From Herbiconiux oxytropis (GTDB lineage: Bacteria; Actinomycetota; Actinomycetes; Actinomycetales; Microbacteriaceae): a stretch of 64,000 bases of DNA. Below, piece after piece: positions 35,515-46,836 of the stretch (position 1 is the first letter of the stretch; the number at the start of each line of letters is the position of its first letter). The translations under genes were made by a program, and so were the position numbers. The stretch covers positions 372,001 to 436,000 of the forward strand of contig NZ_JANLCK010000004.1 of assembly GCF_024979315.1 (NCBI RefSeq), given 5' to 3'. The notes beneath the pieces were generated by a model. The model made no database searches. It had not been told where the DNA came from and saw nothing but the letters and a program-made list of their open reading frames with translations.

Positions 35515-35660
35515 GCCCTATCCTACCATTTTTCCCTGATGAATGCTCGTTTTCGCAGCTGTCCACAGCCCCAGAGGGCACGCCGCGCAGCACGAGCCTC
35601 AGCACCTGGTCGCTCCGGACATGACGAAGGCCTGGTCTCTCGACCAGGCCTTCGTGCTAG
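35515..35660 (-). terminator. Spacer with perfect hairpin downstream of tRNA-fMet
   Basis: ACGAAGGCCTGGTC (35624-35637) and GACCAGGCCTTCGT (35642-35655) are perfect 14-bp arms around TCTC, directly after the tRNA on the minus strand, so it should terminate the tRNA transcript. The rest of the spacer holds the TAGGAT promoter hexamer of the HNH gene (35520-35525) and nothing else I can recognise. Confidence 0.75.
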
Positions 35661-35737
35661 TGGTTGCGGGGACAGGATTTGAACCTGCGACCTCTGGGTT
35701 ATGAGCCCAGCGAGCTACCGAACTGCTCCACCCCGCG
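35661..35737 (-). tRNA. tRNA-fMet (initiator, anticodon CAT), CCA encoded
   Basis: 77 nt including CCA. Acceptor CGCGGGG pairs with CCCCGCA, leaving the C1-A72 mismatch that marks bacterial initiator tRNA. The anticodon stem carries the GGG/CCC pairs (CTGGGCTCATAACCCAG). T-arm GGTTCAAATCC. A second gene for the same tRNA lies at 46763-46836. Confidence 0.97.
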
Positions 35738-35786
35738 TTGCAGGATCCAGTCTACCCCACGCCGGAGGGGCACCCGACCGTCGCTG

Positions 35787-35887
35787 TAGGATCGATCCCG
35801 GAGAGCCGGGAAGTCTGGTCGGCGGGCGGTCACGCGATCGCTCACACCCTTCGCCGACGCCCGCTCTCCGGGCAGCTAGGACACCGC
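35787..35887 (+). ncRNA. Structured leader RNA of nhaA (candidate riboswitch)
   Basis: TAGGAT at 35787-35792 is a -10 candidate that would start transcription near 35798. The RNA begins with CCCGGAGAGC (35797-35806), which pairs perfectly with GCTCTCCGGG (35863-35872) just before the ribosome site AGGA and ATG at 35888. Inside, GTCGGC (35818-35823) pairs with GCCGAC (35853-35858). The strand between the stems, CGGGAAGTCTGG (35807-35818), is an unpaired purine-rich bulge. A long P1 stem next to the ribosome site with an asymmetric internal loop is riboswitch-like. No known class is confidently matched. Confidence 0.5.
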
Positions 35888-37069
35888 ATGGGCATCATCC
35901 GCTCCGAACGCGTCGCCGCGTTCCTCCTTCTCGCCGCCGCCGCCCTCGGGCTCATCGCCGCCAACACGGCAATCGGTCCTGCCCTCCTTCGGCTGCAGGA
36001 TGCGCACCTCGCCATCCCCGGCACGCCCCTCGACCTGTCGGTCGGCCACTGGATCAGCGACGGCCTGCTCGCCGTGTTCTTCTTCGTCGTCGCGGTCGAG
36101 CTCAAGAACGAGCTCACGGTCGGGCAGCTGAACTCGGTCTCGAAGGCCGTGCGCCCCGCCATCGCCGCACTCGGCGGCGTCGCGGTGCCCGCGCTCATCT
36201 ACGTCGCCGTGACCGCGGGCTCCGGCTACGAGGGCGGCTGGCCCATCCCCACCGCCACCGACATCGCCTTCGCGTTGGGCGTGCTCGCCGTGTTCGGCAG
36301 GGGCATCCCGTCGCGACTGCGGATCTTCATCCTGGCCCTCGCAATCCTCGACGACATCGTCGCCATCGTCATCATCGCGGTCTTCTTCACCGCCGACCCC
36401 AACCTCGTGTTCCTCGGGCTCGCGGCGATCGGCGTTGCCCTCTTCGGCCTCGTCAGCCGTCTGCTCGGCGGCAGGCACCGGATGCTCGCCGTCGCGGTCA
36501 TGATCGTGCTCGCGGCGCTCACCTGGTCACTGGTCTACCTCTCCGGCGTGCACGCCACGATCGCGGGCGTCGCGCTCGGACTCGTGATGGTGCGGAAGCC
36601 CGCCATGCACGTCCGCCACGCCCTCGAACCGGTCACGAACGGCGTCATCCTGCCGCTGTTCGCCTTCTCGGCCGCCCTCGTGGCCATCCCCCAGGTGTCA
36701 CCGGCCGAGCTCGCCGCCCCGTTCTGGGGCATCCTGATCGCGCTGCCGGTGGGCAAGGTGATCGGCATCGCCCTCGGCGGCTGGCTGTCGAGCTTCGTGG
36801 GTCCACGCGAGAAGCGGCCGCACCTCACCCCCTACGCGCTGCTGACGGCCGGCGCGCTCGGCGGCGTGGGCTTCACGGTGTCGCTGCTCATGAACGAGCT
36901 CGCGTTCGCCTCCCGGCCCGAGGTGGCCGACGAGGGCACGCTCGCGGTGCTGCTGGGCTCGTCGATCTCGATCGTCGTGTCGGCCGTGCTGGTGTCCCGG
37001 CTGAGCGCCTACTACCGGCGCCTCCGGGTGCTGCGGGCCGACGCCGTCCGCCGCCTCTCCGGAGCCTGA
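35888..37069 (+). CDS. nhaA: Na+/H+ antiporter NhaA
   Basis: 393-residue sodium/proton antiporter with about 11-12 membrane helices that expels Na+ in exchange for protons. Key residues of the family are present: Asp in TATDIAFALG (about 118) and the Asp-Asp pair in LAILDDIVAI (about 150). VFFFVVAVELKNEL near 70 and the GVGFTVSLLMNELAF region near 325 are also conserved. ATG 35888 has AGGA 8 nt upstream. Preceded by a structured leader RNA. Confidence 0.96.
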   Translation: MGIIRSERVAAFLLLAAAALGLIAANTAIGPALLRLQDAHLAIPGTPLDLSVGHWISDGLLAVFFFVVAVELKNELTVGQLNSVSKAVRPAIAALGGVAVPALIYVAVTAGSGYEGGWPIPTATDIAFALGVLAVFGRGIPSRLRIFILALAILDDIVAIVIIAVFFTADPNLVFLGLAAIGVALFGLVSRLLGGRHRMLAVAVMIVLAALTWSLVYLSGVHATIAGVALGLVMVRKPAMHVRHALEPVTNGVILPLFAFSAALVAIPQVSPAELAAPFWGILIALPVGKVIGIALGGWLSSFVGPREKRPHLTPYALLTAGALGGVGFTVSLLMNELAFASRPEVADEGTLAVLLGSSISIVVSAVLVSRLSAYYRRLRVLRADAVRRLSGA

Positions 37070-46762: not shown

Positions 46763-46836
46763 TTGCGGGGACAGGATTTGAACCTGCGACCTCTGGGTTA
46801 TGAGCCCAGCGAGCTACCGAACTGCTCCACCCCGCG
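46763..46836 (-). tRNA. tRNA-fMet (initiator, anticodon CAT), CCA not encoded
   Basis: 74 nt, identical in body to the copy at 35661-35737 with the C1-A72 mismatch and GGG/CCC anticodon stem, but the genomic sequence after A73 is CG instead of CCA, so CCA must be added by tRNA nucleotidyltransferase. Followed by its own terminator. Confidence 0.96.

Follow-up and report, generated by a model that had tools for sequence, protein, structure and literature searches.

A conserved 24-nt core at the predicted start of an nhaA leader marks an apparently undescribed, probably ion-responsive RNA in Actinomycetota and Chloroflexota

The window, a stretch of 64,000 nucleotides, contains an nhaA gene whose product is identified as the Na+/H+ antiporter NhaA by profile match (PF06965, E 5.2e-98). 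The leader of this gene is flanked by a minus-strand tRNA-Met gene (35661-35737) and by nhaA itself (35888-37069). The features discussed below are, by position in the window:

35787-35792, + strand: -10 box TAGGAT, seen in the sequence, with TAnnnT equally spaced in related leaders
35800-35823, + strand: conserved 24-nt core, GGAGAGCCGGGAAGTCTGGTCGGC, predicted transcript positions +1 to +24 (genome scans; model R1)
35800-35806, + strand: 5' strand GGAGAGC of a competing helix (core 1-7), the RNA part of a 10-bp stem, complementary to 35863-35869
35805-35808, + strand: 5' strand GCCG of the core hairpin P1 (core 6-9), with covariation at core pairs 7:23 and 8:22
35818-35824, + strand: 3' part of the core, GTCGGCG, able to form a helix with 35852-35858 in place of core P1 (predicted fold)
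35820-35823, + strand: 3' strand CGGC of core P1 (core 21-24), with covariation at core pairs 7:23 and 8:22
about 35825-35842, + strand: genus-limited hairpin, or second stem (centroid fold; same-genus leaders)
35852-35858, + strand: CGCCGAC, partner of 35818-35824 (predicted fold; CGACC is enriched in actinobacterial leaders)
35863-35869, + strand: 3' strand GCTCTCC of the competing helix (complementarity), whose Chloroflexota counterpart is a terminator 3' arm
35878-35881, + strand: AGGA ribosome-binding site (RBS), seen in the sequence
35888-37069, + strand: nhaA, Na+/H+ antiporter, 393 aa (PF06965), with the start codon ATG at 35888

An earlier, sequence-only reading had proposed a structured, riboswitch-like RNA here, and the elements on which it drew are present: the -10-like hexamer, the second hairpin in the centroid fold, the AGGA site, the purine-rich letters it placed in a bulge (CGGGAAGTCTGG, 35807-35818), and a perfect 10-bp complementarity between CCCGGAGAGC (35797-35806) and GCTCTCCGGG (35863-35872). 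It had matched the leader to none of the known nhaA motifs, and Rfam agrees, giving no credible family for the window and 20 related loci (at gathering), for the leader (E up to 10) or for two more leaders (E up to 5); the covariance models of Na+-I (DUF1646), Li+-I/Na+-II (nhaA-I) and Li+-II (nhaA-II) were all unmatched. The sole matches in the window at gathering are two tRNAs; its two tRNA-Met genes, both on the minus strand and about 11 kb apart (35664-35737 and 46763-46836), have an identical 74-nt sequence. A generic search of 35600-36000 for promoters and terminators was empty, and the predicted fold of the window leader is no more stable than chance, with 25 of 200 shuffles equally stable (z -1.17), or 58 of 200 when it is folded from 35800 (z -0.53).

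The part of the leader that is conserved is a 24-nt core at 35800-35823 with the consensus GGnGnGCCGGGAAGnCUGGUCGGC. Of 60 genomes, counting that of the window, 30 have its exact 17-mer CGGGAAGTCTGGTCGGC and none has the reversed control, so that the conservation of the core is, on this comparison, not due to chance. When up to 2 mismatches were allowed, 80 of the 296 genomes sampled from the phylum had the 24-mer (reversed control, 1), and with two stem pairs left free the core was found in 256 of 394 Actinomycetes genomes (reversed control, 1). Within its own genome, model R1 scores the core at 41.7 bits (E 3.4e-6), the next-best place having an E of 0.36. A scan of named genomes returned at least 119 stretches, and 113 of the 119 listed carry an actinobacterial title. 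Nine core places were seen in one Streptomyces-like genome (G184). Outside this phylum, 12 of the 151 genomes sampled from the phylum of a Chloroflexota MAG (centre included) have the core, as do 21 of the 47 sampled from one Chloroflexota class that includes a Ktedonobacteraceae MAG; the latter sample was drawn around a genome (G786) picked for already having matches. A Pseudomonadota sample around a Mesorhizobium gave 1 genome in 200, which was the centre itself. The matches in this Mesorhizobium (L122), in a Bradyrhizobium (L145) and in an unplaced MAG (L147) were judged doubtful, the Pseudomonadota sample being otherwise empty; no transporter-like frame was recognised downstream at L122, and L147 is followed by a membrane protein of the same kind as at L006 and L117.

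In most loci shown, the usual frame is TAnnnT, about 7 nt, and then the core. We examined the spacing in 184 leaders, a set partly selected for stem pairing in that matches without three stem pairs had been dropped beforehand. The -10 box is the only other strongly conserved upstream sequence among them: TAnnnT lies 3-15 nt upstream of the core in 142 of the 184 leaders, as against 19 at control offsets, and the distance is exactly 7 nt in 92, 8 nt in 25 and 6 nt in 11. In the window, too, the core begins 7 nt after the box. No -35 element is conserved in these 184 leaders and position -1 is a G in just 9% of them, which together with the TAnnnT spacing suggests that the transcript most likely begins at core G1 (35800). 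The sequence-only reading had placed the start at 35797 and had regarded any start farther downstream as fatal to its model. The predicted start does lie 3 nt later, so by the letter of that reading its model would fall; the core is untouched by the shift, and with a start at 35800 seven of the ten pairs of the 10-bp stem would be within the RNA. Start codons cluster 51-63 nt past G1, with a tail beyond 300.

The core contains a 4-bp stem of its own, P1 (GCCG/CGGC), which closes an almost invariant loop of 11 nt. Among the 131 matches listed in the named scan, the unconstrained middle pair is Watson-Crick in all 131 (C-G 128, U-A 3), and the adjacent pair, which was restricted to Y:R, is C-G in 130 and U-A in 1. 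In a census of 394 genomes with the stem left free, 12 cores differ at letter 7 or 8, and 7 of these are compensated on both strands. All 7 have TAnnnT 7 nt upstream and, by eye, a NhaA-, Mrp- or DUF2254-like frame; the 5 uncompensated cores have neither the promoter box nor a transporter-type frame. Two further compensated cores (L286, L297) lie ahead of nhaA in relatives. In alignment A3 (35 distinct rows) there are nine two-sided changes, compared to 1.5 in shuffles and with 0 of 500 shuffles reaching nine, but many of these rows were pre-selected for pairing, and the unselected tests are the named scan and the 12-core census. The rows of its predecessor A1, and some of A3, had been taken after leaving out matches without three stem pairs; A3 was made from A1 by removing L122 and L145 as doubtful and adding seven rows. 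Two of the four P1 pairs, 6:24 and 9:21, are invariant in A3. What is generally expected of a riboswitch, namely a conserved sensor-like core and a covarying structure within a 5' UTR, is thus found here. Because the mean predicted probability of P1 is 0.007 in native actinobacterial leaders and 0.061 with shuffled leaders, the hairpin would need help to form.

A gene could be assigned downstream of 195 of the 207 core matches (12 were without one), with gene starts set by a simple script, so that some are certainly wrong. The largest BLAST cluster, with 125 of the 195 genes, was taken as NhaA from the sequences shown, its members not each having been searched, and the other clusters were named from one or two searched members: Na_H_Exchanger (17), CBS protein (8), MrpA-like (5), DrrA-like ABC (5), a membrane protein with no Pfam or NCBIfam match (5), CitMHS/ArsB-like (3), PPDK_N (3), alpha/beta hydrolase (3), DUF2254 (2) and a cluster without a match (2). 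Seventeen genes are single; those searched were CitMHS_2, P-type ATPase, H+ pyrophosphatase, TrkH, TrkA_N, Na/Ca exchanger, LCM methyltransferase, glycosyltransferase, acyltransferase and SpoIIE. Seen from the gene, the core is present at 18 of 30 NhaA loci of relatives. The four of these loci with NhaA frames of 626-688 aa (L279, L290, L291, L293) have no core, and the 18 with a core are among the other 26.

Some of the genes that follow a core, the DrrA-like ABC, PPDK_N/Rph-like, glycosyltransferase, hydrolase and acyltransferase genes, are not obvious cation genes. The DrrA-like ABC transporters are at L048, L085, L116, L217 and L223, the PPDK_N proteins, which resemble PEP synthase or rifamycin phosphotransferase, at L101, L129 and L141, and at L179 there is a glycosyltransferase similar to those that inactivate rifamycin or macrolides; these family matches are mostly under curated cut-offs. 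At L205 and L207, both in G184, the core precedes small proteins that are similar to each other by eye, and the one searched is a STAS-domain protein. A membrane protein family with the motif ...DPVSSVAYA.EA.LRAL... follows the core at L006, L068, L117 and L147, in Actinobacteria and a Chloroflexota MAG; two members were searched without a Pfam match, and L117 had no NCBIfam match.

Many Chloroflexota leaders have a G+C-rich hairpin, followed by a U-tract, whose left arm is the 5' half of the core. A core-built intrinsic terminator was counted in 22 of 28 distinct Chloroflexota leaders, whereas shuffles gave a mean of 6.15 and a maximum of 11; similar leaders had been merged and L226, L229 and L230 omitted, and some of the 22 are weak cases (e.g. 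L068, L232, L233, L245). L236 is an example, with a fold z of -3.5. In 15 clear terminators, core position 3 is paired as A-U in 14 and stands as U-U in 1, and position 5 is U-A in 7, C-G in 3, U-G in 4 and C-C in 1. The leader L235 (1501-1540) has a terminator that uses the core from position 9 on, and not its 5' half. Since the 5' strand of P1 (core 6-9) lies within the terminator arm, core P1 and the terminator are, as modelled, mutually exclusive in Chloroflexota. Such exclusion implies the logic of an ON switch, which would fit an ON riboswitch or a protein-bound antiterminator. In Chloroflexota, therefore, the expression platform is of the kind that excludes the core structure; in Actinobacteria the corresponding observation is a statistical pairing only.

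Core-built terminators are not above chance in Actinobacteria (4 of 213, with 8.7 expected from shuffles). The pairing was studied there in leaders with an assigned start at 40-110 or 44-100 nt, similar ones being merged. Pairing between leader and core is 0.684 for native and 0.597 for shuffled cores (p 9.6e-13, n=143), and pairing between the RBS and the core is 0.386 versus 0.273 (p 5.5e-8, n=143); total pairing of the RBS is not raised (0.570 versus 0.583 with shuffled cores, p 0.34, n=143). The complement of core 18-22, CGACC, is present in 59 of 149 leaders, with 25.1 expected, and is commonest at +36. Letter swaps at core positions 3, 5 and 15 point to a weak fit of the core to its own leader (p 0.036, 0.015 and 0.034; n=139). 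Two stricter tests were negative: exact complements of a leader's own core 1-5, 1-6 and 1-7 occur in 9, 2 and 2 of 143 leaders (10.7, 2.2 and 0.8 when permuted), and between letter 15 and the RBS region there is no covariation in actinobacterial leaders. These comparisons suggest that leaders of Actinobacteria have adapted to pairing with the core, the two stricter tests notwithstanding, and translational control is likely in this group. In the window, the competing helix GGAGAGC/GCTCTCC is predicted in two folds, and a third, from 35800, has it in the centroid but not in the minimum-energy fold; the pairing of 35818-35824 with 35852-35858 belongs to one of two near-equal predicted folds.

Taken together, the comparisons point to a real, widespread and apparently undescribed cis-regulatory element, which we regard with considerable confidence as a switch acting at the level of RNA. 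Directly legible in the sequences are the core, the spacing to its promoter, the covariation of P1, the terminators built from the core and the gene associations. The model that we favour, with rather more belief than doubt, is of an undescribed, ion-linked RNA class with two states, of which the 24-nt core at the 5' end of the nhaA transcript would be a member. In one state the core would fold as the small hairpin P1, probably stabilised by an ion or a small ligand, and in the other its strands would pair with RNA downstream. In Chloroflexota the second state would be an intrinsic terminator, and for this reason the P1 state would leave the gene ON. In Actinobacteria, the window included, the alternative helices would use the linker and partly the RBS, so that control would most likely be translational, presumably in the same ON direction. 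The signal is likely to be Na+ or a linked variable (H+, Li+), as Na+/H+ antiporters and other cation transporters make up most of the genes; the sequence-only reading had itself named sodium or pH, which is a guess drawn from gene associations. A new ion-responsive riboswitch class is the probable identity of the element, the type of sensor and the ligand being what we infer. That the RNA is a riboswitch in the strict sense, binding its ligand directly, we hold to be somewhat the better bet, and that this ligand is Na+ or H+ we consider less than half probable. The most specific proposal would be a new and exceptionally small riboswitch class sensing an alkali ion (Na+) or protons, with a 24-nt aptamer in the first nucleotides of the transcript, that serves as a principal regulator of Na+/H+ antiporters in Actinomycetota, in several copies in some genomes, and acts on translation in Actinobacteria but through terminators in Chloroflexota; we put it forward tentatively, with slightly more doubt than belief.

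The strongest alternative is that a conserved RNA-binding protein, itself sensing ion or pH, targets the core hairpin and antiterminates or frees the RBS, much as happens at the antiterminator targets of LicT and SacY. A short, near-invariant hairpin that lends its 5' half to a terminator fits such a protein as well as it fits a riboswitch, and P1 is weak alone. However, no recurring regulator gene was noticed beside the core in a general inspection of the loci examined, and one core serves two phyla; we consider this explanation unlikely, if a serious one. A second alternative is that the 24 bp are a DNA site, overlapping the transcription start, to which a transcription factor binds; for this the rigid -10 spacing, the lack of a -35 element and the very high sequence conservation might speak. 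The core, however, is not palindromic, the changes at 7:23 and 8:22 come as base-paired couples, the core is built into terminators, and leaders appear adapted to pair with it, all of which makes a DNA site improbable.

The two-state RNA model also differs from the structure that was originally drawn, in which the 10-bp stem 35797-35806/35863-35872 is a sensor helix at the base of the RNA. The complementarity is real in the window and partly present in L021, but three of its pairs lie ahead of the predicted start, the strict complement test is negative, and the GGAGAGC/GCTCTCC part is common to 1 (L021) of 12 other same-genus leaders and absent in 11, which keep the core. We regard a basal sensor helix as very improbable. 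What is conserved instead is the region drawn as a bulge, which has a 4-bp stem to itself (35805-35808/35820-35823). The predicted pairings of the core differ among same-genus leaders and include the GGAGAGC/GCUCUCC of the window, and the 10-bp stem looks like a lineage-specific competing helix, one of several solutions in the genus. Covariation had been suggested as a check on the two stems, and as drawn they are not conserved beyond near relatives; in most same-genus leaders the second still pairs although its letters differ (by eye). The proposal of a riboswitch-like, cation-linked RNA is accordingly well supported, while its structural model is not. A leaderless upstream peptide (GTG nGC CGG GAA GTC TGG TCG GC) acting by attenuation was rejected as next to impossible, for although most cores begin G-GTG at the predicted start (T in 103 of 131 listed matches), that letter is A, C or G in the other 28, letter 15 varies between T, C, A and G and alters the amino acid, so that neither start nor codons are conserved, and the window, which has GAG, lacks the start codon and refutes the peptide there.

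Found in about two-thirds of the sampled Actinomycetes (256/394), a class that includes the antibiotic-producing Streptomyces, the core would count among the common orphan cis-regulatory RNAs of the class, and it opens a testable question as to how Na+ or pH is sensed in these bacteria. Should the 24-nt core alone bind an ion, RNA sensors of ions would gain a very compact member; should a protein be its reader, this would bring to light a widespread salt or pH regulator.

Several known systems resemble the core in part. The targets of the antiterminators LicT and SacY are short, conserved hairpins that overlap the 5' arm of a terminator, as does the core hairpin; they belong to different genes, however, and the core has no known protein partner. 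The preQ1-I riboswitch likewise has a very small sensor core with a terminator or RBS platform, although to our knowledge it is unrelated to the core in sequence, fold and genes. Searches of open-licence literature, supplements aside, found no description of the core, an earlier description elsewhere being possible; the available portions of two genome-wide ncRNA surveys contain no such motif, and literal core strings matched only an unrelated mouse paper. The Li+-I/Na+-II (nhaA-I) and Li+-II (nhaA-II) riboswitches often lie ahead of nhaA, as the core does, but shared context is not membership; in PMC9646797 the RNAs tested are about 71-73 nt, and most members of these classes are thought by the authors to gate access to the RBS, with rare variants using a terminator. 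The word Actinobacteria is absent from both papers on alkali-ion riboswitches (PMC9337991, PMC9646797). The Na+-I (DUF1646) riboswitch, like the core, is found with cation-transporter genes, including Na+/H+ antiporters, and the ON control that we infer for core leaders has been reported for it (PMC9337991). According to the same paper, Na+-I is built of two extended stems, P1 and P2, its conserved clusters lying at the base of P1 and in the P2 loop, and its reported range is Firmicutes, Proteobacteria, Acidobacteria and Verrucomicrobia, whereas the element described here has a 24-nt core with a single 4-bp stem and occurs in Actinomycetota and Chloroflexota.
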